64,000 bases of DNA. Source: Salinicoccus carnicancri Crm. Lineage in GTDB: Bacteria > Bacillota > Bacilli > Staphylococcales > Salinicoccaceae. The notes beneath the pieces are model-generated. The model saw nothing but the letters and a program-made list of their open reading frames with translations. It made no database searches and was not told the DNA's origin. Where the stretch lies: positions 186,001-250,000 of the forward strand of contig NZ_ANAM01000010.1 in the NCBI RefSeq assembly GCF_000330705.1, read 5' to 3'. How positions within the stretch are numbered: position 1 is the stretch's first letter; each line of letters starts with the position of its first letter. This document shows, piece after piece, positions 16,460 to 41,977 of the stretch. Made by a program: the position numbers and the translations under genes.

Positions 16460-16462
16460 AAT

Positions 16463-16491
16463 AATATACCATCTTCATGCATGAATTACAA
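16463..16491 (-). promoter_or_regulatory. Sigma-A promoter of rplKA
   Basis: Minus-strand TTGTAA (16486-16491) and TATATT (16463-16468) are spaced by 17 bases immediately after the nusG stop. Confidence 0.65.
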
Positions 16492-16499
16492 GTGACTTA

Positions 16500-17039: not shown

Positions 17040-17058
17040 AGCAGTATCTCTCCTTTTA

Positions 17059-17235: not shown

Positions 17236-17252
17236 TCTGTTTCCTCCTGTGA

Positions 17253-17390: not shown

Positions 17391-17427
17391 AAAATCCTCA
17401 TTTCAATTCTAATTTACTATAACGATT

Positions 17428-18066: not shown

Positions 18067-18128
18067 AACAACCCCTCCTATACTGTATTAAACAAATGAT
18101 AAGAGGGATCGCCTTTTAATTCAATATG

Positions 18129-18656
18129 TCAGAAACGGCCGCGCCGCCATTTTTCCAGTTTTGCGTGGATATCCTCGCCGATATCTATTTTCTGCCTGGG
18201 CATTTTTTCATTAATCGCATCCACTTTCCTGCTGATATTCTTTTCCGCCTCCGACAGTGAAATCCACATTTCACGCGAAGAGATTCTGTAGGCACCGAGG
18301 GCGAAGATCGCATTCTGCTCCGTGAGATCGCTTGTGACAACGCTGATCTCGCAAAGGTGCGGATGATAGTTGTCATGGACAAACCGCTCTATATACTCAT
18401 CTGCCGTCTCCTTTTCCTTCGTATATATTACAGTGACTCCGTGAAAATCAAATATGCTCTCCTTCGATTTTACTTCATAGGCATCAAATACACAGATGAT
18501 TTCGCAGCTTACGACCGACTGGTATTCGCTCAGTGCAGCCAGCACCTTCTCCCTGGGAACGATCATTGAGTGGAGAGATTCGCGGTGAAGTTCCCTGTTC
18601 GCCCCGATCAGGTTGTAGCCGTCCACCACGAGCAGCCGCCGCTTTTTCCGCTTCAT
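18129..18656 (-). CDS. rae1: NYN-domain ribosome-associated endoribonuclease (YacP/Rae1)
   Basis: PIN-like NYN-domain nuclease of 175 residues, orthologous by position and motif to B. subtilis Rae1, which enters the ribosomal A site and cuts certain mRNAs. Acidic active-site positions are seen in VVDGYNLIGA (N-terminus), CVFDAYE and VVTSDLTEQ. The C-terminus is basic (AKLEKWRRGRF). The gene is almost fused to rlmB, which stops two bases past its start. Confidence 0.88.
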   Translation of the reverse strand: MKRKKRRLLVVDGYNLIGANRELHRESLHSMIVPREKVLAALSEYQSVVSCEIICVFDAYEVKSKESIFDFHGVTVIYTKEKETADEYIERFVHDNYHPHLCEISVVTSDLTEQNAIFALGAYRISSREMWISLSEAEKNISRKVDAINEKMPRQKIDIGEDIHAKLEKWRRGRF

Positions 18657-18658
18657 GG

Positions 18659-19399
18659 CTATTCACTTCCGGCAGGGTTCTGCTTACGGTACACTTCATA
18701 CATCAGAAGCGCTGCGGAGACCGATGCATTCAGGCTGGTAATATGTCCCACCATCGGAATCCTGACGATGAAATCGCATTTTTCCAGCGTCTTTTTACTG
18801 ATTCCCCTGCCTTCACTGCCGATGACCAGGGCGGTGTTCACATCGGCGGTAAACTCACGGAAATCCATCTCCCCTTTGCCGTCACTGCCGGCAATCCAGA
18901 ATCCCTTTTCCTTAAGTTCATCTATCGTCTGGTTGATATTCGTCACCCTGACTACGGGTACGTGTTCAATCGCACCGGTCGAAGTCTTGGCGACCGTATC
19001 CGTCAACTGCACCGATCTGCGGTTCGGAATGATAATACCATCAAAGCCGGTGGCATCACACGTCCTTAGAATCGACCCCAGATTATGGGGGTCCTCAAGC
19101 CCGTCCAGGATGACCAGGTTCGCCCGCCTGCCCTCAATATTACGGAGAAGCGTTTCAAGCGGCATGTATTCATGCGGGCTCGCCATGGCGACCACGCCCT
19201 GGTGACGCTCCGCCGTCAGGCCGTCAATCTTGTTCTTCGGTACCGCCTGGACGACAATCCTTCGTTTTTTGGCAGTGTCCAGTATTTCCCGGATCTGTCC
19301 TTTGTTGATTGAATCCTGTATCATCACTTTGTTGATGTCTGCGTTATTCTGAAGCGCCTCCTTGACAGCGTGGCGCCCGACAATTACGGAATCACTCAT
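18659..19399 (-). CDS. rlmB: 23S rRNA 2'-O-methyltransferase RlmB
   Basis: SPOUT-family TrmH-type enzyme that methylates the ribose of G2251 (E. coli numbering) in the ribosomal P loop. It has an N-terminal RNA-binding domain and the C-terminal knot with GSEGRGIS and RIPMVGHITSLNASVSAA. The start [16 protein letters not shown] is six bases from GGAGGG; the ATG two codons upstream abuts that site. It overlaps the end of mrnC. Confidence 0.93.
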   Translation of the reverse strand: MSDSVIVGRHAVKEALQNNADINKVMIQDSINKGQIREILDTAKKRRIVVQAVPKNKIDGLTAERHQGVVAMASPHEYMPLETLLRNIEGRRANLVILDGLEDPHNLGSILRTCDATGFDGIIIPNRRSVQLTDTVAKTSTGAIEHVPVVRVTNINQTIDELKEKGFWIAGSDGKGEMDFREFTADVNTALVIGSEGRGISKKTLEKCDFIVRIPMVGHITSLNASVSAALLMYEVYRKQNPAGSE

Positions 19400-25792: not shown

Positions 25793-27163
25793 TTATTTGA
25801 CAGCAGCCTTCAGGGCATCCTTCAATGTGCGGGCACCGATGACTTCAATGCCTTCCGGAACCTCGATGCCCTTCATGTTCGAAGCCGGGATGACGGCACG
25901 CCTGAAGCCGAGTTTGGCTGCTTCCATGAGCCGCTGATCGATTTTCGTGACCCGTCTCACTTCCCCCGTCAGGCCGACCTCGCCGATGAAACAGTCATCA
26001 CCGCGTACCGCAGAACCCTTGAAGCTCGAGGCGATGCTCACGATGATGCTCAGATCCACCGCCGGCTCTTCCAGTTTCCCGCCGCCGGCTACTTTAATGT
26101 AGGCATCATGCTGCTGCATGAGCAACCCTTCACTTTTCTCGAGCACCGCCATGAGGAGCGACAGGCGGTTATGATCTATGCCCGTTGCCATCCGTCTCGG
26201 ATTGTGGAAATGCGTCGGTGTAACCAGCGCCTGCACTTCAATGAGCATTGCACGCGTCCCTTCCATGGTTGCAACAATCGCAGAACCCGGGACATTTTTG
26301 GAACGTTCCTCTAGAAATATCTCCGACGGATTCAATACTTCAGTGAGGCCCACATTCTTCATTTCGAACATACCCATTTCGTTCGTTGAACCGAAGCGGT
26401 TTTTGACCGCCCTCAGAATGCGGTAGGTATGATGCTGGTCCCCTTCGAAATAAAGGACCGTATCCACCATGTGCTCAAGCATCCTCGGGCCTGCGATCTG
26501 ACCTTCCTTCGTCACATGGCCGACGATGAATGTAGCAATATTGCCGCTTTTCGCGATGTTCATTAGACTTTGGGTACATTCACGCACCTGTGAGACACTG
26601 CCCGGCGCGCTCGTGACATCCGGGTGGAAGATGGTCTGGATGGAGTCTACGATGAGGAAATCAGGTTTGGTGTTCTTGATTTCATCGTGGATATGGAAGA
26701 GATTTGTTTCGCTGTATACGTTCAGATTGTCGCTCGCTTCAAGCAGCCGGTCCGCGCGCAGTTTTATCTGCTCGAGTGATTCCTCACCAGAAACATAGAG
26801 TACTTCATGGTCTTCCGACAGTTTCAAGGCCGTCTGCAGCAGAATCGTCGACTTCCCTATTCCCGGATCTCCTCCGATGAGGATCAGTGAGCCGTCCACG
26901 ATGCCGCCGCCGAGCACGCGGTCCAATTCCCCGCTCTGGGTCAGCGTCCTGGGGGTATGGCTTTTTTTGACACGGTCCAGCTTGCGGCTCCGCTGCCGCT
27001 CCTGCTTTTCAGGTTTGCCGAATGTCCCCCTGCCCGTGGTCTCTTTATGGACCAGCTTCTCCTCCATCTGGTTCCATGCGCCGCAGTTCGGACATTTCCC
27101 CGCCCATTTCGGGGATTCATATCCGCAGGCCATACATTCGAATACATTTTTCGCTTTAGCCAT
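25793..27163 (-). CDS. radA: DNA repair protein RadA
   Basis: RadA/Sms, a RecA-like helicase acting in branch migration during recombination. The 456 residues show the N-terminal zinc finger ([19 protein letters not shown]), Walker [11 protein letters not shown], the [11 protein letters not shown] motif and a Lon-like C-terminal domain. In most Bacillales it follows clpC and precedes disA or yacL. Here clpC is 11 kb away and disA is absent from the locus. Confidence 0.97.
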
Positions 27164-27984: not shown

Positions 27985-28022
27985 AAAACCGGCGGATGCA
28001 CCATGATGCATCCGCCGGTTTT
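27985..28022. terminator. Bidirectional terminator, PIMT-like gene and PTS operon
   Basis: A perfect 16-bp stem (27985-28000 and 28007-28022) with a 6-nt loop is flanked by A4/T4, so it works on both strands. It ends the plus gene at 27960 and the minus PTS operon at 28048. Confidence 0.92.
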
Positions 28023-28047: not shown

Positions 28048-28335
28048 TCATTGATTGATTTTTTCCTCTATCCTGTCATACATCTCATCTACTCCCATTC
28101 CTGTAAGCAATGGCACACCGTCGATCACTTTGTCCCGGATGTCATCCGGGACAATGGTCGTGGAAACGATGATATCATAGTCATCGATGCGGTTTAACTC
28201 ATCACTTATCTTCGACTGATGCAGCGAGACTTTATCCTCCAGACCGTTATCTTCGAGCCATGTTTTCACTTTCCCCGTCACCACTGTCGAAGTCGCTACA
28301 CCAGTTCCGCACATTATCAAAAGTTTCTTCGTCAT
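28048..28335 (-). CDS. gatB: PTS system galactitol-family IIB component
   Basis: Cytosolic IIB phosphocarrier of 95 residues. The N-terminal loop LIMCGTGVATST carries the phospho-accepting Cys9. The GatB-type fold is shared with several polyol PTSs, so galactitol itself is not implied. It is the last gene of the minus operon and follows the matching IIC. Confidence 0.9.
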   Translation of the reverse strand: MTKKLLIMCGTGVATSTVVTGKVKTWLEDNGLEDKVSLHQSKISDELNRIDDYDIIVSTTIVPDDIRDKVIDGVPLLTGMGVDEMYDRIEEKINQ

Positions 28336-28356
28336 TTTCTTCGCCTCCTTAACTAT

Positions 28357-29715
28357 TTATGATTCCTGTTCTTTTTTCAAGTCACTGACTTTATTCTTAT
28401 ACACTATCAGAACCAGCGTAACCAAAAATACAATTCCAATGCCAATCCAGCCGGCCAGGTCGCCCAGCCCGCCAAACAGGATGGTTGTCCACGCACCTCC
28501 GTCACTCAGCACTGTGATTGATGTATTCCCCCCCAGATCAAAATTGGCCGATTTTGCAGTTTCGGTAATGAACGGCGTTGCCCATGAAGAAATATACAAT
28601 GCACCTGCAAGAAGGATTCCGCCCCCTATGACACTCCTGAAAATATCCCCTCTGAAAACAGGCACCATCAGACAGATGATGAAAGGAATGGTTGCCAGGT
28701 CTCCAAGCGGCAGCGTGGTATTGCCCGGGAGAATCACTGCCAGGAGTAAAGTAATTGGAACGAGCAACAAGGAGGCCGCCAGCACTGAAGAATGCCCCAC
28801 TGCCAGTGCGCTGTCCATCCCGATGAACAGTTCTCTGCCGGGAAACCTCTTCTTGACCCAATCCGTCGCCGCCTCAGATATTGGAGAAAGCCCTTCCATA
28901 AGAAGGGACACCATTCTCGGCAAAAGTAGCATCACTGCACCTGTCGCCACACCAAGCCCCAATGTTTCTCCTACACCGTAACTTGCAAGCAGACCGATTA
29001 TTATACCTATGAAAAAACCCAATACTGTATTATCACCAAAAATCCCGAACCTCTTCTGTATCGATTCGGGGCTGAGGTTGAGTTTATTCAAACCCGGGAT
29101 TCTGTCAAAGAGCCAATTCAACGGCAGCGCCAATACAAGCCCTGCCACCGAGAGGCCGTGAGGAAAGGACATATTGGCAAGGCCGTAATATTTCTGCACA
29201 TATTTGGCACTTATATCCCCCAAGTAATAGATTAGCATCGAATGTGTAATCATGGTGAATATTCCCAGCCCAAAATCCCCTGTAATGGCATAGACGATGG
29301 AACCCGAGAATGCGATATGCCAGAAGTTCCATATATCGACATTGAGGGTTTTCGTCATACCTGTCACCAGTAATAAAACATTGACTACTATTCCTACTAT
29401 GATTGCCATACTCCCCAAAAATGTGCCATATGCTATGGCGGCAGCAGCCGGCCATCCTACATCTATGGTTTGCATTGACAACCCATAGTTCTCGACCATC
29501 GCTTCAGCTGCAGGTCCCAGGTTGTCGGTCAGAAGACCGATCACCAGGTTAAGTCCTATGAAGCCGACACCGATGGTCAAAGCCGCTTTAAACGCTTTGC
29601 CGAATTTCACTCCTAGTATCAGTCCAAAAACAAGAAAAATTATAGGGAGCATGACACTTGCCCCTAAATCAAGAAACCACTGCATTACCTGTTCAAAAAC
29701 CTGCACACCCCTCAT
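28357..29715 (-). CDS. gatC: PTS system galactitol-family IIC permease
   Basis: Membrane channel of a galactitol-family PTS, 452 residues with about ten hydrophobic helices. Family segments such as FPHGLSVAGL and RELFIGMDSALAVGHSSVLAAS are visible. The start is uncertain among closely spaced ATG and GTG codons. It lies between IIA and IIB genes of the same system. It probably imports a polyol as its phosphate. Confidence 0.9.
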   Translation of the reverse strand: MRGVQVFEQVMQWFLDLGASVMLPIIFLVFGLILGVKFGKAFKAALTIGVGFIGLNLVIGLLTDNLGPAAEAMVENYGLSMQTIDVGWPAAAAIAYGTFLGSMAIIVGIVVNVLLLVTGMTKTLNVDIWNFWHIAFSGSIVYAITGDFGLGIFTMITHSMLIYYLGDISAKYVQKYYGLANMSFPHGLSVAGLVLALPLNWLFDRIPGLNKLNLSPESIQKRFGIFGDNTVLGFFIGIIIGLLASYGVGETLGLGVATGAVMLLLPRMVSLLMEGLSPISEAATDWVKKRFPGRELFIGMDSALAVGHSSVLAASLLLVPITLLLAVILPGNTTLPLGDLATIPFIICLMVPVFRGDIFRSVIGGGILLAGALYISSWATPFITETAKSANFDLGGNTSITVLSDGGAWTTILFGGLGDLAGWIGIGIVFLVTLVLIVYKNKVSDLKKEQES

Positions 29716-29736
29716 CCCCTTTTATCCAAATCGGAT

Positions 29737-30198
29737 CTAGTTTTTCTGCTCTTTAAAATCATCCAGCACCTTGTTGCACTCATCGATACTCCGTACTGTG
29801 GCGAGCTTCGAAACAACCCTTTCATCCTGCACCATCTCTATAAGGTTCTGCAGGGTGGTCACCTGTTCACCGGGCGCGTCTACGGCAAGCATGAATACTA
29901 TTTTCACACCGACCTCCAGCTCCGCATTCCCCATACTTGAAAATGGCACCGGTTCTTTTAATGTCGCCAGAGCAATTCCGGGCTCGATCACTTTATCAGT
30001 ATCAGTATGCGGGATGGCAACAGCGTAGGGAGAAGTGGGAAGACCTGTGGGGAAATTCTCCTCTCGGTCTAAGACATTCTCTATGAAATCATCCGCGACA
30101 TACCCTAACTCGTACAGCCTTGTGCCCATCGCTTCCAAAACTTCCTCCTTCGTTTGAAAATCGATGTCGATCATCATCAACTCTTCGTCAATCTGCAT
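29737..30198 (-). CDS. PTS IIA component (fructose/Ntr-type fold)
   Basis: IIA phosphocarrier of 153 residues. The active His is in YAVAIPHTDTDKVI near residue 64, and the family region FMLAVDAPGEQVTTLQNL follows. This IIA type serves galactitol-family PTSs. It begins the IIA-IIC-IIB set downstream of the SAF oxidoreductase, after a 130-base gap without a visible terminator. Confidence 0.88.
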   Translation of the reverse strand: MQIDEELMMIDIDFQTKEEVLEAMGTRLYELGYVADDFIENVLDREENFPTGLPTSPYAVAIPHTDTDKVIEPGIALATLKEPVPFSSMGNAELEVGVKIVFMLAVDAPGEQVTTLQNLIEMVQDERVVSKLATVRSIDECNKVLDDFKEQKN

Positions 30199-30328
30199 TG
30201 TCTTCTCCTTCCATTGCAGCCCTTCTTTCAGATGAAAGATGTTCGCTTTAAACCAAAATTCATATTTCCCCCAAAATCATGAACCCTCCTGTTCACAGAT
30301 CCATGGTTATTCCAGTAGATGCCATAAT

Positions 30329-31624
30329 TTATCGCTCAAGCATTGCATCCTGCTTTTTTCTGAGTTCCCATATGAGGGAGGACTCATCATGGTCGACGTC
30401 ATCGTAAGTGATGACATCCCCTTTTCGGACATCATTCTTCAGCACCAGTTTATTGCTGACAAGTCCGACAGGCAGGGCATTCATGGATTTGGCCTCTTCA
30501 TAATCGTAGATTCTTCCGTATATTGTATACCCTCCGATTGTATCCAGGCTGTCTCCTGCTTTCAGGTCAATTTTGGCTACTGTTGCAGTTTCGGCAACCA
30601 TCCCTTTGTATGGTGCAATGGTCGGTGTGTTATGCAGATAGGCTTTTGCAACTGACAGCGGCGTCTCAAGGCTTGTCAGATGATATGGCCTGTAAAGTAC
30701 ATAGTTCGGCCCTTCCCCCATGCTCAAATATTTCATTTCTTCGTTCACTTCTTCCTTTTCTGATGAGATGATGGCGAATACACCGGGGGCGATACCCTGC
30801 ACAAAATCGACGATTTTATGATTCCTCACCTCTCCACCTTCAGACTCGAGCCTGAAGATTTCCGGAAGTTCCTTGACACCGGCTTTAAAACCATGCATAC
30901 CCGGCTGGTCCGGCAGGAATCCGGTGGCATTGGCCACTGCATTCATCTCCACCATGGTCTTGGTGCCATCCTGGAATGAAGCGATCATTTTGGGGTTGGA
31001 TTTCTTCTTTCTCGCCGCCTCTGCAACACTGTCAGGGTTGGCATCTTGATTTAACGGATTGTTCTTCCCTTTACCCAGCCCGACCACTTCAAACCCAAGT
31101 GCATCGGCAAAATCGTACAGTTCCATTATCGCTCCCGGTTCATCACCTGCAGACCCCGTATATACGACTCCCTGCTCCTCTGCCAGACTGTTAAGGTAGA
31201 CACCGACTGTAATATCAGCTTCGACATTCAGCATGACGATGTGCTTTTTATGCTCGATTGCCCCGAGGGCAACTGAAGCGCCGACTTCCGGGATCCCGGT
31301 TGCATCAACAATCACATCGATACCGTCCACCTGGCACAGAAGGCCGGAATCTATCATTGCAACGCTCTTGTTCTCCTTCACCGCCTGTGCCGCCTGCCCG
31401 AGAGTATCTGCGACCATCACTTCTTCGGAAGGGATGCCTGCCAGTTCATACGCACGAATCACATTATCAATCTGTATATCTGATGTTGCAACGACCTTCA
31501 TGCCATTCATGGAGGCGATTTGAGAAATCATGCCTCTGCCCATCTGGCCTGCACCTACCAGTCCTACATTTATCTGTTTGCCTGATTTCTCCAGCTTTTC
31601 AAGTTCTCTGTTTATTCCAAGCAT
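30329..31624 (-). CDS. Rossmann/SAF-domain NAD(P)-dependent oxidoreductase, DXR-like (DRL) family
   Basis: A 431-residue enzyme of the family often annotated as predicted homoserine dehydrogenase with SAF domain. It has an N-terminal nucleotide loop GLVGAGQMGR (21-30), a central catalytic region with VYTGSAGDEPGAIMELYDFA and GKGKNNPLNQDANPD, and a C-terminal SAF-like domain (about 340-420). Characterised relatives are Brucella DRL, which makes MEP from 1-deoxyxylulose 5-phosphate, and apionate oxidoisomerase; both couple skeletal rearrangement to redox. True homoserine dehydrogenase is unlikely in this polyol PTS operon. I infer it acts on the imported polyol phosphate. Confidence 0.78.
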   Translation of the reverse strand: MLGINRELEKLEKSGKQINVGLVGAGQMGRGMISQIASMNGMKVVATSDIQIDNVIRAYELAGIPSEEVMVADTLGQAAQAVKENKSVAMIDSGLLCQVDGIDVIVDATGIPEVGASVALGAIEHKKHIVMLNVEADITVGVYLNSLAEEQGVVYTGSAGDEPGAIMELYDFADALGFEVVGLGKGKNNPLNQDANPDSVAEAARKKKSNPKMIASFQDGTKTMVEMNAVANATGFLPDQPGMHGFKAGVKELPEIFRLESEGGEVRNHKIVDFVQGIAPGVFAIISSEKEEVNEEMKYLSMGEGPNYVLYRPYHLTSLETPLSVAKAYLHNTPTIAPYKGMVAETATVAKIDLKAGDSLDTIGGYTIYGRIYDYEEAKSMNALPVGLVSNKLVLKNDVRKGDVITYDDVDHDESSLIWELRKKQDAMLER

Positions 31625-31643
31625 GATTTACTACCTCCATGTT

Positions 31644-32003
31644 TTAGTTAGATTTGATGATGACTTTCTGCCCTATTTCAAGACTGGGAATTTCTTTTTT
31701 CTCGAGGCATATCGTACCGGGCAAGTCTGAATCGCTCTGACCATTGAACTGGAATGTCGCATGTCCCAGCTCACGGAGTGTTTCATTCGCTTTGCCGCCG
31801 ACAAACAATATGTCATAAGATTCATCACCAAGTTCCATAACATCTCCTGCTTCCACTATCTCTGAAACAGCACCATCATGGACCACTGAAATGTCCCGCA
31901 GTTCCTGTGGTGAGTCTTCGTTGAACAGAATCACCATATTTTCACTTTTCATCATTTCCCATTCGTTGCCGAGTTCACTGATTGTTGCGTTTAATTTTTC
32001 CAT
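31644..32003 (-). CDS. srlB: PTS glucitol/sorbitol-type IIA component
   Basis: SrlB/GutB-type IIA of 119 residues. The phospho-accepting His is in DISVVHDGAVSEI (about residue 41). FVGGKANETLRELGHATFQFNG is the family's conserved middle and is interrupted by no gap. It follows the membrane components srlA and srlE. The family's known substrates are hexitols, but relatives with other polyols exist. Confidence 0.92.
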   Translation of the reverse strand: MEKLNATISELGNEWEMMKSENMVILFNEDSPQELRDISVVHDGAVSEIVEAGDVMELGDESYDILFVGGKANETLRELGHATFQFNGQSDSDLPGTICLEKKEIPSLEIGQKVIIKSN

Positions 32004-32025
32004 TGCTCAAAAATCTCCTTTGCTG

Positions 32026-33042
32026 TTAATAAATGAAGAAACTGAAACCGAATGCAATCAGAACAGCAAGTGGTCCTGTGATCGCTCTTGAGAACAGCAC
32101 TGCCGGCACACCGACTTCGATCGTCTCCGGCTCTGCCTCCCCCAGGGTCAGTCCAACCGGCACAAAATCCGCACCTGCCTGAGGGTTGATTGCAAATAAT
32201 GCAGGCAGGGCCATTTCCGGTGGTATATTGCCATTGCCGATTTCTACACCAATCAGGACACCGACTACCTGGGCGATTACCGCACCAGGGCCCAGTACAG
32301 GTGACAGTACCGGCAGTGATACGATTACCGAAAGCAGCAGCAGACCCAGAATGTTTCCGGCAAGCGGGGTTACTGCATTGGCGATGAGATCGCCGATGCC
32401 GGTGAATGTAATGATACCGATGAGCATTGATACGAATGCCATGAATGGAAGTATGTTTTTGATGACCTGATCAATCGTTTCGCGTCCGGCCTGATAGAAT
32501 ACGCTGACTATGCCACCCATGGCACGGCCGATACGTTCAATGAATTTTTTCTTTTCAGGTTCCTTTTTGTTGTCGGCAACTTTCTGCTTTGCTTCTTCTT
32601 TCAATTCTTTCGAGGTTTTCCTGCCGGCAGCAGCCGGTTTGACCGGATTGGTTCCATCTGACGATGTCCCCCCATCTTCAGACAGTTCAATATTCCTCTC
32701 CCTTACCCCGGAGACGAAATTATCTTCTTTAATGAACTGCATGAGCGGCCCCGATGGACCCGTTCCGTGCAGATTTACCGTAAGCACATCATTTTTTGGA
32801 TAGATGCCGCATCTTGCAGTGCCTCCGCAGTCTATGATTACACACGCCATTTCATCGTAATCCACTTTCGTATTGAACCCATCCACTGCTTCTGCCCCTG
32901 TCTGGTCAGCAATGTATTGGGCAAGCGGATCGATGCCGCCACCTGTAACCGAGACTACATATGGCTTTTCTGCACTGGGGGTGACCATAAGAGGACCGCC
33001 CCATCCGCCGGAACCTTTTGAAATTTTAACTGATTTATACAT
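32026..33042 (-). CDS. srlE: PTS glucitol/sorbitol-type IIBC component
   Basis: A 338-residue protein with an N-terminal IIB domain, whose active Cys72 lies in [15 protein letters not shown], a charged linker (about 120-165) and a C-terminal half-channel of several helices (from about 185). The second half-channel is encoded by srlA. This split is the hallmark of the glucitol family. Confidence 0.93.
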
Positions 33043-33053
33043 TTCTGAACCCC

Positions 33054-33587
33054 CTATTCATCCTTTAAAAGCCCTTGTTTTTTCATCATCCTCACTGTGA
33101 TTATCTCCGTTAGTATCCCCCGGATCAGAATGACCACAACACCGGTCACAAAATACATAAGAGCCAGCGGTCCGAGAGGCATGCCGAGTGTCGTGAGTCC
33201 TGCTGACACGCCCAGGTACACAAACAGTTCCGCCGGGTTTGCGTGCGGGAACAACCCTGTAATCGGGTGAACAAAGGAAACGGCTGAGTCATAGAAAGCC
33301 GGTTTCTGCTTTTCCGGCAGAAATTTCCCGAATGTATACGCCATCGGATTGGTCAGGAAAAACACTGCCAAAATCGGAAATAGTGTATAGCGGAGTATGA
33401 AATATTTCGTGAGTTTCTGTGCAAATCTGGTCACCCTATCTTCACCGACAAACCTTACAACTGCATTCACGGCGGTAATCAGTACAATCAGCAAGGGAAT
33501 GATATCTGTCACCATCCCCATGAATGTATCCCCGCCTTCCTGGAACATGCCGATGAAACCTTCTGCAATCCTGACTACAAAGTCCAT
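33054..33587 (-). CDS. srlA: PTS glucitol/sorbitol-type IIC component
   Basis: Membrane half-channel of 177 residues with four or so helices. The family segments [22 protein letters not shown] and [15 protein letters not shown] are visible in part. It is the second gene of the minus operon, between gutM and srlE. Confidence 0.92.
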
Positions 33588-33589
33588 AG

Positions 33590-33979
33590 TTACCCCTGCC
33601 TTTCCTTATCAGCTTTAGTCACTTCGATTTTCTCTACTGCACTTACAATCGCCTGCTGCAGTTGTGGCTCCGCTTCATAGGAGAGAAGGGATGACATTTT
33701 TTGCCCTGCAAGCTCCGAGTATTCCTCAAACCTGGAAAAGACTGTGACACCTTCCATTTTTCTCGCTTCTACCACAACATCATCCACATCAGCCACCAAA
33801 ACCATGACTACCCCTTTGCCAAATCGCCTTTTGCTTCTTCCTACTCCCAAATATCCTGAACCCCTTTTGCTCATCTCGCGTATCGTCTGATGATAATTTT
33901 TCAACTGATAGTGAGTGAGCAGAAACTGAAGCCCCCATAAGACGGCAAACAATAATGCAATGAATATCCATGTCTGCAC
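33590..33979 (-). CDS. gutM: GutM-like protein, first gene of the PTS operon
   Basis: A 129-residue GutM/SrlM family protein with one N-terminal membrane helix (WIFIALLFAVLWGLQFLL), then a cytosolic part with GYLGVGRSKRRFGKGVVMVL. In E. coli GutM is described as an activator of the glucitol operon, but the membrane anchor makes a PTS accessory role possible. It leads the operon, 15 bases after the operator. Confidence 0.85.
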   Translation of the reverse strand: MQTWIFIALLFAVLWGLQFLLTHYQLKNYHQTIREMSKRGSGYLGVGRSKRRFGKGVVMVLVADVDDVVVEARKMEGVTVFSRFEEYSELAGQKMSSLLSYEAEPQLQQAIVSAVEKIEVTKADKERQG

Positions 33980-33993
33980 TCCCGACTCCCCCT

Positions 33994-34026
33994 TTTACAT
34001 TTGTTCCAATAAAGAACTTATGTAAA
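33994..34026. promoter_or_regulatory. 33-bp palindromic operator at the PTS operon start
   Basis: TTTACAT-TT-GTTC, 7 bases, GAAC-TT-ATGTAAA: a nearly perfect inverted repeat with both outer and inner arms matching. It lies over the expected start of the minus-strand promoter and directly before gutM. The same pattern recurs at 34129-34161, so it is probably the site of the SorC-family regulator encoded at 37512. Confidence 0.8.
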
Positions 34027-34054
34027 TAGTAAAGCGTTTCCATCCGCATGTCAA
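34026..34054 (-). promoter_or_regulatory. Sigma-A promoter of the PTS/oxidoreductase operon
   Basis: Minus-strand TTGACA (34049-34054), 17 bases, TACTAT (34026-34031). The -10 touches the 33-bp operator and the spacer contains a cre site. Confidence 0.85.
34029..34042 (+). promoter_or_regulatory. cre site (CcpA) in the PTS promoter
   Basis: GTAAAGCGTTTCCA fits the cre consensus TGWAARCGYTWNCW at 12 of 14 positions, the two mismatches being at its 5' end. It lies between the -35 and -10 of the minus promoter, a position that would give catabolite repression. Confidence 0.7.
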
Positions 34055-34097
34055 TAGATATCTGAAAATTAAAACTTAAAATAAAATTCAGTTATGT

Positions 34098-34126
34098 TTG
34101 ACATGATGCGTCTTATCCATTATCAT
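34098..34126 (+). promoter_or_regulatory. Sigma-A promoter of the acoABC-type operon
   Basis: TTGACA (34098-34103), 17 bases, TATCAT (34121-34126) on the plus strand, directly upstream of the second operator copy. Confidence 0.82.
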
Positions 34127-34128
34127 TT

Positions 34129-34161
34129 TTATCAAATGTTCCATAGTTGAACATATGTAAA
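34129..34161. promoter_or_regulatory. Second operator copy at the acoABC-type operon
   Basis: The right half GAAC-AT-ATGTAAA matches the first operator exactly outside the two free bases. The inner palindrome ATGTTC-7-GAACAT is perfect, and the left outer arm TTATCAA is degenerate. It starts just after the -10, as a roadblock or start-site repressor would. Confidence 0.72.
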
Positions 34162-34178
34162 TGAAAGGGGTATGTCAT

Positions 34179-35159
34179 ATGAACCTGAAATTGCCGGAAG
34201 CTGTTTCCACAGAGAAGTTGACAGAACTTTATGAACAGATGTGGCTTATCAGACTTTTTGATGAAAAAGTCGACGAATTTTTCGCAAAGGGAAAGATACA
34301 CGGAACAACCCATCTGGCGGTGGGACAGGAAGCATCTGCCGCCGGCGTATGCGCTCTGCTTGATGACAGTGATAAAATCACGAGCACACACAGGGGCCAC
34401 GGGCACTGTATTTCAAAAGGTGCGGACACGAGATATATGATGGCAGAACTTTTCGGCAGAGAAACTGGGTACTGCAAGGGGAAAGGCGGTTCAATGCACA
34501 TCGCCGACCTCAAAAAAGGTAATCTCGGTGCAAACGGGATCGTCGGAGGCGGGTTTGCAATCGCAGCCGGCGCAGCCCTCACCTCCCAGATGAAAGACGA
34601 AGGATATGTCGTAGTCTGCTTCTTCGGAGACGGTGCATCAAACGAAGGAAGTTTCCACGAAGCTCTGAATCTTGCATCCATATGGAAATTGCCTGTCATT
34701 TTTGTATGCGAAAACAACCAGTACGGGATGTCCGGATCAGTAAATGATATGACAAATGTCAGCGATATCGCTGACAGGTCCGCCTCCTATGGCATCCCCG
34801 GCAGCGTCGTGGATGGAAATGACATATTCGATGTCATGCAGGCGACAGATGAAGCTGTCAGATTCGCAAGGGAAGGAAATGGGCCAAGCCTTGTGGAATG
34901 CAAAACCTACAGATGGAAAGGGCATTCGAAAAGTGATGCGAAAAAATACAGAACCCGTGAAGAGGAAAAGCAATGGAGAGACAGAGATCCGATCAGACTG
35001 ATGAAGGAAAAGCTCATCGAGGCCGGCCATTTTACAGAAGAGGACGCTGAGGATATCAAAAAGAAAGCTGTGGAGATGATTGAGGAGAGCGTCCAATTCG
35101 CACTCGACAGCAAAGAACCCGATGTATCCACACTGCTTGAAGATGTCTACGCTGAATAG
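34179..35159 (+). CDS. acoA: TPP-dependent dehydrogenase E1 alpha (acetoin dehydrogenase type)
   Basis: E1 alpha subunit, 326 residues from [14 protein letters not shown], the ATG 8 bases after AAAGGGG. The TPP/magnesium motif starts [18 protein letters not shown] and ends ENNQYG; the [12 protein letters not shown] and GKGGSMHI segments are typical of the acetoin dehydrogenase branch rather than pyruvate dehydrogenase. It works with the E1 beta and E2 encoded next. No E3 gene is here, so lipoamide dehydrogenase must come from elsewhere. The real acyloin substrate is open. Confidence 0.88.
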
Positions 35160-35170
35160 GAGGGAAAAAC

Positions 35171-36157
35171 ATGAGAGAAATAACTTATTTAGAGGCTGTC
35201 AGAGAAGCTTTGTCGCAGGAAATGAGAAATAACGAAGATGTTTACATGCTCGGAGAAGATATCGGTGTATATGGAGGCGCATTTGGTGTCTCCAGAGGCA
35301 TGATTGAAGAGTTTGGGCCCGAACGCATCAGGAACACCCCCATTTCAGAAGCTGCGATATCCGGTACCGCAGTCGGCTCTGCACTTACAGGAATGCGCCC
35401 GATACTGGAACTGCAATTCTCAGACTTCATCACTATCGCAATGGATAACCTGGCAAACCAGGCGGCAAAAATACGTTATATGTACGGCGGGAAGGGAACG
35501 ATTCCGATGGTTCTCAGGACGCCATCAGGTTCCGGCACAGGTGCTGCAGCCCAGCACTCACAGAGCCTCGAGGCATGGGCTGCGCATATACCCGGTCTTA
35601 AAGTCGTACAGCCTTCAACAGCCGGAGACGCAAAAGGCCTGCTCAAAGCCGCAATAGATGATAGCAATCCGGTCGTTTTCTATGAACATAAACTGTTGTA
35701 CAAAACATCGGGGGAAGTGCCTGAAGAACAATACAGCATCCCTCTCGGCAAAGCGGATATCAAACAAGAAGGCACAGACGCGACGATTGTCGCCACCGCA
35801 ATGATGGTCCACAAATCCCTTGAGGCCGCCAATCTGCTTTCAGAAAAAGGAATCGATGTAGAGGTGGTGGATCCGAGAACACTGGTGCCGTTCGATACGG
35901 AAACAGTCGTGGAATCAGTCAAAAAGACCGGAAGACTGCTTGTAGTGCATGAAGCTGTCAAATTCGGAGGGATTGGCGGAGAAATTGCTTCCATAGTTGC
36001 GGAAAGCGAAGCTTTCGATTATCTTGACTATCCTATAAGGCGTCTCGGAGCGGCGTTTGTCCCGGTTCCGTACAACCCGGTGCTGGAGAAGGCATCTGTT
36101 CCTTCTGTAGAGGAGATTGTCGAAAATATTCAGGAAATGGTCAATTACCAATCTTAA
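35171..36157 (+). CDS. acoB: TPP-dependent dehydrogenase E1 beta (acetoin dehydrogenase type)
   Basis: E1 beta subunit, 328 residues, beginning [18 protein letters not shown]. The family signatures [29 protein letters not shown] and [20 protein letters not shown] are present, and the C-terminal transketolase domain contains [11 protein letters not shown]. It is 11 bases after E1 alpha with an AGGAGGG ribosome site. Confidence 0.92.
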
Positions 36158-36169
36158 GGAGGGTTAATC

Positions 36170-37432
36170 ATGCCGAACGAAATATTCATGCCCAAGCTTA
36201 GCAGTACCATGGCCGAAGGTACTGTGATCGAATGGTTCAAGGATGAGGGGGAGACCGTAGAGATTGGCGAGCCCATCCTTGAGATCATGACTGATAAGAT
36301 CAACATAGAGGTGGAAGCCTACCATGAAGGTATTCTTCTGAAAACATACTTCGGAGCCGACGATGTCGTACCCGTAAACCATGTGATCGGATACATCGGG
36401 GAAGAAGGTGAGGGAGTGCCTGATACCGCTCCAGGATTAAGCTCAGAAGCTTCTGCTGAAGAAACAGGGGGAAAAGGCAGCAGAGAGGATAATGCCGCAT
36501 CTTCCGATACCGGGACACCAGAAGAAAAAGCGCCATCAAAGAGTGATAGGACCGTGTCCGGAACCAGGGAAAACAGCCTTGGAAAAGTAAGGGCTACGCC
36601 TGCCGCACGCGCCCTGGCCAGAAATGAGGGAATTGATATCCATGATGTTTCAGGTAGCGGAAGAAACGGGCGCATCCATAAGCAGGATGTGGCAGATCAC
36701 ACATCCGGTTCTGAGGAACATCAGAAGACTCCCGTCAATCACCTGGCAACTGGAGTCCGCACTGAGAAACTGAAAGGAGCCAGAAAAACTGTCGCTGACA
36801 GGATGGCTGACAGCAGCACGTCCATTCCACATGTAACAATCGACTTTGAAGTCGAAATGGACAATCTCATCGACCTCAGAAACCGTGTAAATCAGCAGAA
36901 TCCGGATGATAAAGTGTCATTCAGCGATCTTTTCATTCTCATCACTTCCAGAGCACTCAACAGACATCCTGAGATCAACATCACCTTCGAAAACGATGTG
37001 ATACAATATCATGATGCCCGAAACATCGGTCTTGCTGTTGCCGTAGACAAAGAGCTGCTTGTCCCGGTCATCAAAAATACAGAGTCGAAATCCCTTCTTT
37101 CCATCAGGGATGACAGTAAAGAACTGATCAGTAAGGCAAGGGATGGAAAATTAATTCCTGCTGAAATGCAGGGAGGGACATTCACGATTTCCAACCTCGG
37201 CATGTACAGCATCAGGCAGTTTACACCGATTATCAACAAGCCTCAGGCAGGTATACTCGGCATAGGCGGTACAATGGATAGGCCAGCCGTCCACGATGGC
37301 CGCCTTATCAATAAAAAGGCGGCAACGTTCAGCCTGTCGTTTGATCACAGGGGGGTAAACGGTGCCCCCGCTGCAGCATTCTGCAATACTGTAAAGCATC
37401 TTGCAGAAAATCCAGTTGAATTGATACTCTGA
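36170..37432 (+). CDS. acoC: Lipoyl-bearing E2 acyltransferase (acetoin dehydrogenase type)
   Basis: E2 of 420 residues: lipoyl domain with the modifiable Lys43 in TDKINIEV, a Ser/Glu-rich linker (about 85-135), an E3/E1-binding domain (RATPAARALARNEGID, about 143-175) and the catalytic domain. The active-site motif reads DHRGVNGAP: the His is kept, but Asn replaces the Asp of the usual HxxxDG. Relatives with this Asn exist, so it need not be inactive. It transfers the acyl group to CoA. Confidence 0.9.
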   Translation: MPNEIFMPKLSSTMAEGTVIEWFKDEGETVEIGEPILEIMTDKINIEVEAYHEGILLKTYFGADDVVPVNHVIGYIGEEGEGVPDTAPGLSSEASAEETGGKGSREDNAASSDTGTPEEKAPSKSDRTVSGTRENSLGKVRATPAARALARNEGIDIHDVSGSGRNGRIHKQDVADHTSGSEEHQKTPVNHLATGVRTEKLKGARKTVADRMADSSTSIPHVTIDFEVEMDNLIDLRNRVNQQNPDDKVSFSDLFILITSRALNRHPEINITFENDVIQYHDARNIGLAVAVDKELLVPVIKNTESKSLLSIRDDSKELISKARDGKLIPAEMQGGTFTISNLGMYSIRQFTPIINKPQAGILGIGGTMDRPAVHDGRLINKKAATFSLSFDHRGVNGAPAAAFCNTVKHLAENPVELIL

Positions 37433-37477
37433 CTCAGACTGCCATTCCTTGAACGGGATGGCATTCGATTTATTAAA

Positions 37478-37486
37478 TGATATAAT
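37478..37486 (+). promoter_or_regulatory. Extended -10 promoter for the SorC regulator
   Basis: TGATATAAT (extended -10 TGN-TATAAT) lies 25 bases before the regulator start; the -35 (ATGGCA, 37458-37463) is poor. A small hairpin (GCCATTCC / GGGATGGC, 37441-37462) lies just upstream and may weaken read-through from the E2 gene. Confidence 0.5.
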
Positions 37487-37511
37487 TGTTACGATACAAG
37501 GAGGTTGGCCT

Positions 37512-38462
37512 ATGGCAACAATCACAGAAGACAAAAGGCTCATCGTCAAGGTGGCTAAACTTTATTATTTCGATGGGATGACGCAGGCTGAGATTGCCAG
37601 GAAAATCGGTGTATCCCGCCCCATCGTTTCCAAAATGCTCACCAAGGCACGGGAAGATAAGATTGTTGAGATTTTCATCAAGGATGAGTCTGCCCATACT
37701 GTCGATCTCGAGCTCCGGCTTGAAAAACAATACTCCCTGCAGGAAGCGATTGTCATTCCGAGCTCTGACTATGCCCAAAAAGAAACACTCAGTCTTCTGG
37801 GCCAGGCTGCCGCGGCTCATGTATCCAAAAGAATGGACAGCGTAAGCTCTGTCGGTATCAGCTGGGGCAATGCAGTCTCTGCTTTTGTCAACGCATATCC
37901 TTTTGAGAAAAATCAAGGTGTGAATGTTGTCCCCCTCATCGGAGGCATGGGAAGAAGCGAACTCGATCTTCATTCAAATATGCTTACTTTGAAATTTGCC
38001 CAAAAATTAAACACGACATGCAGCTACCTGTATGCGCCTGCTATGATAAAGAATATAGATACTAAAAACAGACTGCTGGAGTCAGAAGATATATACGGGG
38101 TCCTTGATGAAGGCAGATCCGTAGATATGGCAATAGTCGGCATGGGGAATCCTGTCGTGGATTCCACTATGGAGACGATCGGCTACCTGTCAAAACAAGA
38201 TGTCGAATCGTTAAGGGCTGCAGAAGCTGCCGGGGACATCAACTCAGTATTCTTTGACAAGAACGGAGTCAGCCTTGACCATCATATCAATGAAAGTGTC
38301 ATCGGCATTGATATGGACGGCCTTAGACAAATCCCAGAAACCATTGCCATCGCGCACGGGGACAACAAAGTCCCAAGCATCCACGCCGGCCTGCTCAGTG
38401 GCGCTGTCGATGTGCTCGTTACCGATGATGAGACTGCGCAGAAAATCCTCTCTCTAAACTAA
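37512..38462 (+). CDS. SorC-family sugar-responsive transcription regulator
   Basis: A 316-residue SorC-type regulator. The N-terminal helix-turn-helix is MTQAEIARKIGVSRPIVSKML (split motif at about residues 24-44), followed by the sugar-phosphate-binding domain with VGISWGNAV, PLIGGMGRSELDLHSN and HGDNKVPSIHAGLLSG. The start MATITEDKRL follows AAGGAGG by 8 bases. It is last in the plus operon and is the obvious candidate for the two 33-bp operators; its effector is expected to be a phosphorylated sugar or polyol. Confidence 0.9.
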   Translation: MATITEDKRLIVKVAKLYYFDGMTQAEIARKIGVSRPIVSKMLTKAREDKIVEIFIKDESAHTVDLELRLEKQYSLQEAIVIPSSDYAQKETLSLLGQAAAAHVSKRMDSVSSVGISWGNAVSAFVNAYPFEKNQGVNVVPLIGGMGRSELDLHSNMLTLKFAQKLNTTCSYLYAPAMIKNIDTKNRLLESEDIYGVLDEGRSVDMAIVGMGNPVVDSTMETIGYLSKQDVESLRAAEAAGDINSVFFDKNGVSLDHHINESVIGIDMDGLRQIPETIAIAHGDNKVPSIHAGLLSGAVDVLVTDDETAQKILSLN

Positions 38463-38463: not shown

Positions 38464-38500
38464 AGCGGCGGCCCCCATATAATCGGGAGCCGCCGTTTCT
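38464..38500. terminator. Bidirectional terminator between the SorC gene and clpC
   Basis: CGGCGGC and GCCGCCG arms close an inner imperfect stem (CCC/GGG) and are flanked by AAAA and TTTCTT. It serves the convergent regulator and clpC transcripts. Confidence 0.75.
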
Positions 38501-38504: not shown

Positions 38505-40946
38505 TTATTTTTCCACTTTTTCCTTCTCGTCTGTACTGACATCAAACTCATCATTTTTGTAATCAATTGTCACTACTCTTCCTTCCAGCTGTGCGCCGGA
38601 CAGGAGGGATTCACTCAGCCTGTCCTCAATATGGCGCTGGATGGAGCGTGCGAGGGGCCTTGCTCCGTATTCCGGATCATAGCCGTCATCGGCGATTTTT
38701 TCTTTCGCCGCATCTGTGACTTCAAGATGGATCTCCTGTCCGGCAAGCCTTGTTTTCAGCTGACCGATCATGAGTGTCACTATTTCTTTCAGATGTTCTT
38801 TCTCGAGACTGTGGAAGACGATGGTATCGTCGACACGGTTGATGAATTCCGGACGGAATGTGTTTTTCAGCTCTTTCATCATCGTGTTTCTGATCGTGTC
38901 ATAGTCCCTCGCGTTATCTGTAGTACCGAAACCTGCGAACTTCTGATCTTTGAGTTCCTGGGCTCCGATATTGGATGTCATGACAATGATCGTATTGCGG
39001 AAGTCCACTGTACGGCCATTGGAGTCTGTCAGCCGGCCGTCATCAAGCACCTGCAGCAGCATGTTGAATACATCGGGGTGCGCTTTTTCGATTTCGTCGA
39101 AAAGGATGAGTGAATAAGGCTTCCTTCTCACCTTTTCAGTGAGCTGACCGCCGTCATCATAGCCGACGTAGCCCGGAGGTGAACCGACAAGCCTCGACAC
39201 GGAGTGTTTCTCCATGTACTCACTCATATCAACGCGGATCATCGCATCCTCTTCACCGAACATCGCCTCGCTCAGCGCTCTGGCGAGCTCTGTCTTACCG
39301 ACACCTGTCGGCCCGAGGAAGATGAAGCTGCCGATCGGCCGTTTTGGGTTCTTGAGGCCGGCACGGGCACGCCTTACAGCTTTGGAGATGGATTCCACTG
39401 CATCATTCTGGCCGATCACCCTGTCGTGGAGTATGGATTCCAGATTAAGCAGCTTCTCCGACTCCTCTTCCGCAATCTTTGCGAGTGGTATGCCCGTGAT
39501 GCCGCTGATGACGAGTTCGATATCGCTCCTTGTCACGGACTGCGAAGACTGGCCCTGCTCTTTCTTCCAATTGTCTTCACGGTCTTCGAGCTCTTTTTCA
39601 AGTTTTGTCTGCTGATCGCGGAAGTTCGCCGCTGCTTCAAATTCCTGACTTTGAACCGCCGCATTCTTCTCTTTTTTGATTTCCTCAAGTTTATTTTCAA
39701 GATCCTTAAGATCCGGAGGAGACGTGTAGCTTCTCAGCCTCACTTTGGAGGAGGCTTCATCTATGAGGTCAATCGCCTTGTCCGGCAGGTATCTGTCCTG
39801 GACATAGCGGTCGCTCATCGTAACCGAAGCTTCCAAGGCTTCATCACTGATTGTGATCCTGTGGTGCGCTTCATAACGGTCGCGCAGCCCTTTCAGGATG
39901 AGGATGGCATCCTCCACATTCGGCTCGTCCACCTGCACCGGCTGGAAGCGGCGTTCGAGTGCCGCATCCTTCTCAATGTGCTTGCGGTACTCTTCCAGTG
40001 TCGTCGCACCGATACATTGCATTTCACCGCGGGCAAGCGCCGGTTTCAGAATATTGGATGCATCTATTGCGCCCTCGGCTCCGCCGGCACCGATCAGTGT
40101 ATGCAGCTCATCGATGAACAGCACTACGTTGCCGGCCTTGTGTATTTCCTCCATGACCTTTTTCATGCGTTCCTCAAATTCACCGCGGTACTTGGTGCCC
40201 GCCACAACCGTTCCCATGTCGAGTGACATGACGCGCTTGTCCTTCAGTGTTTCAGGCACTTCGTTTTTGACGATCTGCTGTGCAAGCCCTTCGGCAATCG
40301 CAGTCTTACCCACACCAGGTTCACCAATCAGCACAGGGTTGTTCTTCGTCCTTCTGCTCAGGACTTCGATAACCCGTGTGATCTCGCTTGAACGACCGAT
40401 GACCGGATCCAGCATATCATCACGGGCTATCTGTGTGAGATCGCGGGCGAGCGAATCCAGTGTGGGTGTGTTGTGGTCCTTCTTCATATTATCTTTCTGC
40501 TGGAGCGCCTCAGGATTGCCGAGCATCTTGATCACCGCAGCACGCGCTTTGGTTATATTCAGGTCAAGGTTGGATAGTACTCTGGCGGCCACGCCTTCGC
40601 TTTCACGGATCAGGCCGAGGAGCAGGTGCTCCGTACCGACGAAATTATGATGCAGTTTTCTCGCTTCATCCATTGAAAGCTCGATGACTTTTTTCGCCCG
40701 CGGCGTATAGTGGATGGAAGAAGAGGATTCTGACCCTTCATTGATGAGGTTGAATACCTCTTCTTTGACTTTATCCTCTGTAATATTGAATGATTCCAGC
40801 ACTTTCGCTGCGATGCCTTCATTCTCCTTAACGAGACCGAGGAGCAGGTGCTCTGTACCAATATTCGAATGCTTGAGGTTGATTGCTTCTTCCTGCGCGT
40901 ATGCGAGCACTTTCTGTGCACGTTCTGTCAGTCTGCCAAATAGCAT
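38505..40946 (-). CDS. clpC: ATP-dependent Clp protease ATPase subunit ClpC
   Basis: AAA+ unfoldase partner of ClpP, about 813 residues. Two N-domain repeats (each with [19 protein letters not shown]-type motif) precede two Walker ATPase modules ([15 protein letters not shown] and [17 protein letters not shown]), with the UVR-containing middle domain between. The start is [11 protein letters not shown], 8 bases after AGGAGGG; the ATG two codons earlier is only 2 bases away. It is last in the CtsR-controlled operon. Confidence 0.98.
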
Positions 40947-40948
40947 AT

Positions 40949-41977
40949 TCATTTCCCTCCTGATAATTCTCTTAATAGTGTTGCACGTTCTTCATCGACC
41001 GCCTGTTCAAGAGATGTATAGTGTTTGTGCTGTTCGTTCAGTCTCATTTTGAGGAAAGCCGGCTGGATCAGCTGGATCCATTTCTGGAACTTGAAACCGT
41101 CATGCTCAAGGACTCCAAGATCAATGCCCAGCTTGACATCACTCAGACATTTCGCCGCTTCTTTAAGAGACATCTTATATGCATGCTTCAGCAGCCCGTA
41201 GGAACGGGATGCTGAATCTTTCACTTCAAGAAGATGTTCGCTTTCAAGACGTGAGCGCATCTCAAGTTCCTCTTCGATGATCTGCGACTTCAGCTCATCC
41301 AGGTTCTGGATAATCTCTTCCTCTCCCTGTCCCAGTGTGAGCTGATTCGACAGCTGATATATATGTCCGAGAGGAACGGACCCTTCTCCATATATACCTC
41401 TTAACGTAAATCCGAAACGGTTTAAATTGCCTGACAGCCGTTCAAGTTTCCTCCCCAGTGTAAGCGCGGGAAGATGGAGCATGACAGAGGCCCGCATGCC
41501 GGTTCCGACATTCGTCGGACAGGCTGTCAGGTAGCCGAAATGTTCATCGAAGGCATAGTCCACCACGTCTTCCAGGGATTCATCTATCTTTTCAGCTTCT
41601 TTGTAGAGTGCATGGATCGGCACTCCCGTGCCCATCGTCTGGATACGTATATGATCCTCTTCATTGATCATGATGGAAACCGATTCATTCTCATTGATGA
41701 AACTGTGCAGTCCCTGCCTGGTAAAGAGCGGACTGATCAGATGCTTTTCCACAAGCAACGCCTTGTCTTCGAACTTCAGCATGTTCATCGACACTTTCTG
41801 ATAGTCATCAAAAGCCGTGCTGAGTTTTTCCAGGACTGCATCCAGTCCATCGTCGTCCCTCATCATATGCGGAAAAGGGACATGCCTGACATTCCTGGCA
41901 AGCCGCACCCGTGCTGACATTTCAACAGGAAGCTCGGCGGACTCTTCTATCCAGGGGCTCACATTATTTTGCGCCAT
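40949..41977 (-). CDS. mcsB: Protein arginine kinase McsB
   Basis: McsB phosphorylates arginine residues of misfolded proteins, marking them for ClpCP, and relieves CtsR repression. It is a phosphagen-kinase-fold enzyme with [10 protein letters not shown] near the N-terminus and [20 protein letters not shown] mid-protein. The start [12 protein letters not shown] gives 342 residues and a short overlap with mcsA; the upstream ATG at 42016 would overlap mcsA by more than 50 bases. Confidence 0.95.

Follow-up and report, generated by a model that had tools for sequence, protein, structure and literature searches.

In the 64,000-nucleotide stretch of the Salinicoccus carnicancri Crm genome that we analyzed (contig NZ_ANAM01000010.1, positions 186,001 to 250,000; hereafter the window), two divergent operons at 28048-38462 bring together a glucitol-type phosphotransferase system (PTS), an oxidoreductase of the DRL/DXR-II family and an E1/E2 complex dependent on thiamine pyrophosphate (TPP) (Table 1). 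Judging by open frames and Pfam/NCBIfam matches, the minus operon is organized as gutM-srlA-srlE-srlB-DRL-gatA-gatC-gatB and the divergent plus operon as E1a-E1b-E2-SorC. SrlA, SrlE and SrlB all score above their Pfam cut-offs, and SrlA and SrlE also above the NCBIfam equivalog cut-offs, with SrlB (TIGR00849) below; the glucitol PTS class itself says nothing on the substrate. The regulator combines PF04198 with a weak helix-turn-helix-like match at the N-terminus, which places it in the SorC family. An earlier note on this DNA had described the minus operon as a glucitol PTS, a DRL-like enzyme and a galactitol-type (gat) PTS, and both coordinates and families were borne out. Its description of the plus operon holds for the E1a, E1b, E2 and SorC genes but not for a typical acetoin-dehydrogenase-type E1, as the window E1 falls into a separate group beside that type. 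The lack of a sorbitol-6-phosphate or tagatose-phosphate enzyme, also remarked on there, was found again among the genes of 28048-38462 with open frames and family scans.

Table 1. Genes and putative regulatory sites of the divergent operon pair and its borders (window coordinates).
Feature	Coordinates	Strand	Match or remark
Hairpin, G+C-rich, possible terminator after gatB	27990..28020		minus-strand terminator-like site 28003-27990; longer stem by eye
gatB-like PTS IIB, optional second PTS	28048..28335	minus	PF02302 1.5e-10
gatC-like PTS IIC (EIIC-Gat), optional second PTS	28357..29715	minus	PF03611 2.8e-88; TIGR00827 below its cut-off
gatA-like PTS IIA (EIIA-2), optional second PTS	29737..30198	minus	PF00359 6.8e-34
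DRL/DXR-II family oxidoreductase	30329..31624	minus	PF21135 DRL_cat 3.9e-69; 3UPL/3UPY E ~1e-109
srlB, glucitol-type PTS IIA (EIIA-Gut)	31644..32003	minus	PF03829 3.8e-33
srlE, glucitol-type PTS IIB(C) (EIIBC-Gut)	32026..33042	minus	PF03612/PF07663; NF049924 above its cut-off
srlA, glucitol-type PTS IIC (EIIC-Gut)	33054..33587	minus	PF03608 4.9e-76; NF049923 above its cut-off
gutM-like protein	33590..33979	minus	PF06923 2e-26
Operator 1, imperfect palindrome at minus promoter	33994..34026		inverted repeat and direct repeat
Promoter-like site TTGACA-17-TACTAT	34026..34054	minus	10/12, consensus match only
Candidate cre-like sequence TGGAAACGCTTTAC	34029..34042	minus	by eye, ~11/14 against consensus
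Promoter-like site TTGACA-17-TATCAT	34098..34126	plus	11/12, consensus match only
Operator 2 at plus promoter	34133..34161		inverted repeat and direct repeat common with operator 1
E1-alpha (TPP enzyme)	34161..35159	plus	PF00676 1.5e-90; alternative start at Met, residue 7
E1-beta	35171..36157	plus	PF02779/PF02780
E2 lipoyl acyltransferase	36170..37432	plus	TIGR01349 7.9e-99, below its cut-off
SorC-type sugar-binding regulator	37449..38462	plus	PF04198 3.5e-70; NF053881 (DeoR) 1.2e-68, below its cut-off
Terminator-like hairpin between regulator gene and clpC	38466..38495		12-pair stem, scored on minus strand

A PTS-DRL-E1 polyol catabolic pathway of some kind is very probably encoded here, and with somewhat less assurance we infer from gene content that the operon pair probably degrades a branched C5 polyol, most likely 2-C-methyl-D-erythritol (ME). 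ME would enter as methylerythritol phosphate (MEP) through the glucitol-type PTS, which a gat-type PTS joins in some species, and DRL would oxidize and rearrange MEP to 1-deoxyxylulose 5-phosphate (DXP) with NAD+. DXP is an acyloin ending in a methyl ketone, and its cleavage by the TPP-dependent E1 would yield D-glyceraldehyde 3-phosphate and an acetyl group, which E2 would pass to CoA, with E3 supplied from elsewhere in the genome. Both promoters would be controlled by the SorC-type regulator through two operators. Such a route would in effect reverse the entry reactions of the MEP pathway, those of DXS and DXR. The earlier note had proposed this sequence of PTS uptake, DRL conversion and E1/E2 cleavage, and comparative genomics now lends it support through co-occurrence, the genome G244, the cofactor-site residue and E1 residues unlike those of acetoin dehydrogenase. 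No report of a methylerythritol catabolic pathway was found among the open-licence literature matches listed.

DRL loci were counted as linked when a glucitol PTS or E1 gene lay within 9 kb. The DRL domain was detected in 39 of the 398 Bacillota genomes searched, and 33 of these provided 37 DRL loci, in which DRL is accompanied by both PTS and E1 (17), by the PTS alone (5) or by neither (15). Four of the last group have less than 5 kb of sequence on one side and four encode DRLs less than 40% identical to that of the window; at six of the 37, the neighboring genes were read from a named copy of the same record. Among the 121 distinct DRLs from all fetched loci the corresponding numbers are 37 with both, 4 with E1 alone, 39 with the PTS alone and 41 with neither; the 80 named loci included here are the top matches to an alignment with the window protein in first place, and these counts therefore favor close relatives; the 37-locus count is the fairer one. 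None of five DRLs below 40% identity has an srl or E1 neighbor. An E3 gene is present in 20 of the 37 loci. Outside Bacillota, the PTS, DRL and E1/E2 core resides on plasmids of Rhizobium (L158) and Pseudoroseomonas (L161, also with a gat PTS), and a 9.3-kb actinobacterial contig (L086) encodes a regulator, DRL, E1 and E2, with no PTS in view. A single Priestia plasmid (L149) carries genes for the PTS, E1, E2, E3, two SorC-type proteins, DRL and an FGGY kinase. The association of DRL with E1 and the glucitol PTS, a search for which the earlier note had suggested, hence recurs beyond the genus and the phylum, in Bacillota and on alphaproteobacterial plasmids.

Whether a Rossmann enzyme uses NAD or NADP depends on a position where an acidic residue marks the NAD type; the window DRL has Asp49 there, in place of the Ser-Ala-Arg-Arg (SARR) pattern of the Brucella enzyme. 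In the DRL set used for the tree (121 distinct of 127 full-length matches, plus the window protein), an acidic residue 49 occurs in 79 of 81 DRLs that have srl or E1 nearby versus 23 of 41 others (Fisher p 1.6e-8, with kinship among sequences ignored). The two non-acidic linked rows are L137_7 and L055_11, the latter linked by distance only and adjoining another gene set. As for DRLs in other settings in genomes without DXR-I, those of G026, G041, G197, G201 and the second copy of G298 possess Ser or Asn with Arg or Lys, while Asp is retained in G079 and in the second copies of G115, G149 and G226, with Arg next to it in three of these four. Use of NAD by an NAD-type site would favor MEP oxidation.

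With 185 of 427 residues (43%) identical to the Brucella 3UPL stretch, the predicted DRL fold of the window protein is plain. It contains the DRL_cat domain and retains the fosmidomycin/substrate residues K191, K193 and T229 (Brucella numbering), as well as R320, Y322, E174, F178, G121, H250 and V351, ligand or dimer positions named in PMC3847144, of which H250 and V351 vary among other linked DRLs. Thus, the resemblance to Brucella DXR-II/DRL (3UPL, 3UPY; family in PMC3847144) extends to the catalytic domain and these named residues, and the differences are Asp49, the PTS/E1 operon setting and a host with DXR-I. For Finegoldia magna DXR-II, activity was confirmed, neither isoprenoid pathway was found in that genome, and the word stem "catabol" is absent from the main text of the same article (PMC3847144). 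In Deinococcus (L162), a DRL-family protein is encoded inside a nucleotide-sugar gene cluster, probably reflecting another function in the family.

As for isoprenoid genes, the window's own genome has both DXR-I and DXS, so DRL is not needed for isoprenoids. DXR-I occurs in 23 and IspF in 38 of the 39 DRL genomes of the Bacillota sample. G244, which lacks IspF, IspH and DXR-I and is the sole one among 21 genomes tested with HMG-CoA synthase above the cut-off, encodes its DRL in an srl/E1 operon; the earlier note had suggested searching for the cassette in species without ispD/ispF. In turn, IspF and IspH occur without DXR-I in G037, G176, G250 and G341, and the only DRL of each lies in an srl-DRL-E1 operon, which makes this DRL the best candidate there to make MEP; such genomes would tie the cassette DRL to DXP and MEP. 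G381 shares the IspF/IspH profile without DXR-I and was counted outside these four operon-context genomes. In all, 15 DRL genomes (G026, G037, G041, G079, G115, G149, G176, G197, G199, G201, G226, G250, G298, G341 and G381) possess IspF and IspH with neither DXR-I nor a DXS above the family cut-off; G041 is only 75% complete. DXS exceeded the cut-off in 6 of 22 genomes tested, all six with DXR-I. A best dxs-model match was obtained in 12 of the 15, nine of them with the transketolase-type THQ motif and three (G197, G199, G298) lacking all motifs looked for; the DXS motifs that three canonical controls display were found in none of these 12 matches. The genome G199 has a 607-aa DXS-like frame.

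The E1 proteins of DRL loci are distinguishable as well. For the trees, matches below 70% query cover or 90 bits were left out, one was kept per locus and near-copies were removed. DRL-linked proteins require 3 and 4 label changes in the E1a and E1b trees, respectively, with moderate support, and stand apart from PDH (pyruvate dehydrogenase)-type E1s and from two acetoin dehydrogenases (L165, L166) adjacent to butanediol dehydrogenase genes, the only references of that kind. L113 and L118 carry an unlinked label in these trees, their DRLs being duplicates of L096 and L048, and count as linked in the residue comparison; the truly unlinked tree rows number 11. Thr49 of E1a is present in 42/42 linked rows versus 2/26 unlinked ones and the loop GHS[KR]SD (GHSKSD in the window) in 42/42 versus 3/26, while Glu257 occurs in 12 of the 26 unlinked rows and in no linked one. 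The exceptions to the signature are L201 and L212 with both residues and L215 with the loop only; L212 belongs to G139, which has a DRL elsewhere in the genome, and L201 to G353, without a DRL match. In the alignment with the mitochondrial PDH E1-alpha chain, residue 49 corresponds to Phe of GFCHL and residue 257 to Met of GHSMSD. We take both positions to line the active-site channel. Where acetoin-type E1s have Phe and Glu, the cassette E1a carries Thr49 and Lys/Arg257; a smaller residue 49 together with a positive charge replacing Glu would suit a larger, phosphorylated substrate.

The window E1 thus does not group with butanediol-linked E1s, differing in tree position and in residues 49 and 256-258. 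It resembles the acetoin dehydrogenase E1 (AcoA/AcoB; L165, L166) as a near group in the trees and in the proposed acyl-CoA-forming cleavage of a methyl-ketone acyloin, but has Thr49 for Phe and GHSKSD for GHFEGD, no butanediol genes and a tie to PTS and DRL. A mutant PDH E1 (AceE) was described to allow DXP production (PMC3424233), which implies that enzymes of this type can act on the bond concerned. We rejected the idea of a DRL-only E1 subfamily: of 30 genomes with a listed E1-beta match of at least 60% identity, 18 have DRL and 12 do not. The residue signature separates linked from unlinked E1 better than E1-beta identity. Other E1-alpha/beta genes, in L164 and L215, adjoin sugar-metabolism genes and hint at a wider group of sugar-linked acyl-CoA-forming E1s.

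Within the genus, DRL is patchy, being present in 5 of 12 Salinicoccus genomes and in none of the 21 genomes from the rest of the family. Among named organisms, Candidatus Salinicoccus stercoripullorum is the nearest relative (DRL 93%). We compared four congener stretches, L245 to L248. The whole operon is present in L245 (apparently the same genome as L032), and L247 retains the core without the gat PTS and pcm. In L248, gutM to DRL are separated from E1a and the start of E1b by a different gat PTS, a zinc alcohol dehydrogenase (ADH) and two SDR genes; the stretch ends within E1b. The L246 stretch gave no match to gutM, srlA, srlB, srlE, E1 or E2; by eye, what is left is the end of the regulator gene and a fragment of srlE, the fragment being joined to a DRL devoid of its first nucleotide-binding segment, and the gat genes stay. 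DRL has thus decayed there along with its partners, as would be expected of an enzyme working for them rather than for isoprenoid synthesis. On the grounds of L247, the gat PTS was rejected as part of the conserved core. Consequently, of the two-PTS system of the earlier note, the glucitol PTS recurs in the core and the gat PTS is optional; at nine loci (L032, L054, L096, L116, L120, L127, L130, L131 and L161) a gat-type gene lies no more than 9 kb from DRL, srl and E1.

The operon shares srlA, srlE, srlB and gutM with the glucitol/sorbitol (srl/gut) operon, but lacks sorbitol-6-phosphate dehydrogenase, has a SorC-type regulator and includes DRL and E1. A true sorbitol operon was rejected, since no gene for this dehydrogenase lies among 28048-38462. 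Uptake seems exchangeable, as in Sinorhizobium (L160) an ABC transporter and a PfkB kinase take the place of the PTS; variable uptake around a constant DRL-E1-E2 set is expected if the substrate is a polyol needing prior phosphorylation. According to the title of Testa 2004 (in the reference list of PMC3994034), a sorbitol PTS, the same class as the window glucitol-type PTS, transports methylerythritol into Salmonella.

Several observations weigh against degradation of ME by this route. ME was chosen as the substrate from the function of the enzyme family and the title of one paper. In genomes without DXR-I, some operon DRLs with an acidic residue 49 would also have to make MEP, meaning that the motif does not fix the direction. 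More than half of the DRL loci examined have no E1 nearby, including, of the 121 distinct DRLs, the 39 with srl only and the 41 with neither partner, and the Phyllobacterium DRL (L159) is accompanied by ABC genes with no E1 in the stretch. Thirteen of the 39 srl-only loci (L057, L062, L071, L075, L076, L077, L091, L092, L097, L107, L110, L111 and L135) carry a trio encoding UPF0047, a divergent TIM-like protein and a class II aldolase, which is perhaps an alternative lower pathway that splits the product differently; the trio is also present at the E1 locus of G244. Among the 398 genomes searched, at least 12 without a DRL match have an E1-beta at 60% identity or more, several of acetoin type by their E1a residues. 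The window E2 has DHRGVNG in place of DHRxxDG, with Asn for the usual Asp (the same exchange is seen in L032, L034, L061 and L163). Finally, in L248 and L212 (G139) this type of E1 is accompanied by a gat PTS, a zinc ADH and two SDRs, which may suggest that a second polyol reaches this E1 through ordinary dehydrogenases.

The same chemistry might act on a different branched polyol, another 2-C-methyltetrol stereoisomer or apiitol, which the PTS would phosphorylate and DRL would turn into a ketose phosphate. The nine loci besides the window that combine a gat-type PTS with DRL, srl and E1 would agree with this, as would the ADH and SDR genes of L248 and L212, as if more than one isomer were handled. 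We consider it rather improbable: by pathway reasoning, apiitol phosphate would give a pentulose 5-phosphate, needing no E1/E2, and the DXR-I-less genomes suggest that these DRLs make MEP. Clearly less credible is a linear polyol operon, for a hexitol or deoxypolyol, with DRL as an ordinary polyol-phosphate dehydrogenase. The names of the PTS families, glucitol and galactitol, point that way, as do the ADH and SDR genes beside this E1 in L248 and L212, yet fructose or tagatose phosphate needs no acyl-CoA-forming E1. Moreover, the published sorbitol operon of Ligilactobacillus salivarius has its own sorbitol-6-phosphate dehydrogenase gene (PMC4165912, PMC8065712), and on a plasmid of another strain none is annotated beside the DRL operon in a gene table that may be incomplete.

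Two further explanations concern isoprenoid synthesis. The operon could run forwards, with E1 making DXP from pyruvate or acetyl units and glyceraldehyde 3-phosphate, and DRL making MEP, as the 15 DXR-I-less genomes with IspF and IspH also lack DXS above the cut-off and the AceE mutant makes DXP (PMC3424233). This is very unlikely given E2, the PTS, the sugar-type regulator and, at 20 of 37 loci, E3; the window genome has both DXS and DXR-I, and six of the 15 (G026, G041, G079, G197, G199, G201) have no E1 within 9 kb of the DRLs examined, where contig ends truncate the G041 and G201 loci and an E1-beta is encoded ~14 kb away in G079. The least chance of all is left to DRL as a spare DXP reductoisomerase with unrelated neighbors, a view already disfavored. 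Eleven sequences of the DXR-II family are counted as functional in complementation (PMC3847144), which speaks for it; the DXR-I and DXS of the window genome, the operon of G244, which has HMG-CoA synthase and none of the MEP-pathway genes sought, the loss of PTS and E1 genes around a broken DRL in L246 and the acidic cofactor residue all speak against it.

Methylerythritol occurs as a metabolite of plants and, like its isomers, forms when isoprene is oxidized in the atmosphere. By description only, the D-apionate oxidoisomerase pathway is similar in that a branched sugar derivative is oxidized and rearranged in catabolism, but it involves no phosphorylated polyol and no E1. If ME degradation as proposed is true, it would show how methylerythritol can be broken down and that an acyl-CoA-forming enzyme can act on a sugar phosphate, and it would assign a role outside biosynthesis to an enzyme family that has been discussed as a drug target. 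It would also explain why many bacteria keep the apparently redundant isoprenoid enzyme DXR-II beside DXR-I, a question raised in PMC3847144. More speculatively, methylerythritol catabolism by reversed MEP entry, with DRL followed by a DXP-cleaving E1, might exist in several phyla and be the original role of DXR-II. Some lineages that have lost DXS and DXR-I might then live on the cassette, either turning environmental ME into isoprenoids by salvage or making DXP with its E1, and the gat PTS and ADH/SDR genes might widen the range to other 2-methyltetrols, such as those from isoprene in air. Taken as a whole, this wider scenario is possible but doubtful.

In the intergenic region, the operator TGTTCN7GAACWTATGTAAA is present in two copies (34002-34026 and 34137-34161), each adjoining a -10-like box. 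The same operator at both promoters, as claimed in the earlier note, was thus confirmed as two exact copies, one per promoter, and these are the only exact copies genome-wide. With up to three mismatches the pattern gave 6 forward and 2 reverse matches in the genome versus 3 and 2 for the reversed control. The congeners L245, L247 and L248 each have one TGTTCN7GAAC upstream of E1a; a second exact copy was not found by that pattern in these stretches.

The operon pair lies between genes that we take, by eye, to be clpC (38505-40952) and radA (25793-27163), and a pcm-type gene is situated between them as well. In the Rhizobium plasmid L158, a thiamine-synthesis operon (13439-18666) is located near the cassette. 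A small conserved CxxC protein of ~100-150 aa, absent from the window operon, is encoded near DRL at 28 loci (e.g., L041, L116, L128); the one member scanned had no Pfam match. In L128, L148, L123, L124, L050, L058 and L063, DRL is adjoined by a transaldolase/FSA-type gene, and five of these seven loci also encode the small CxxC protein and EI.

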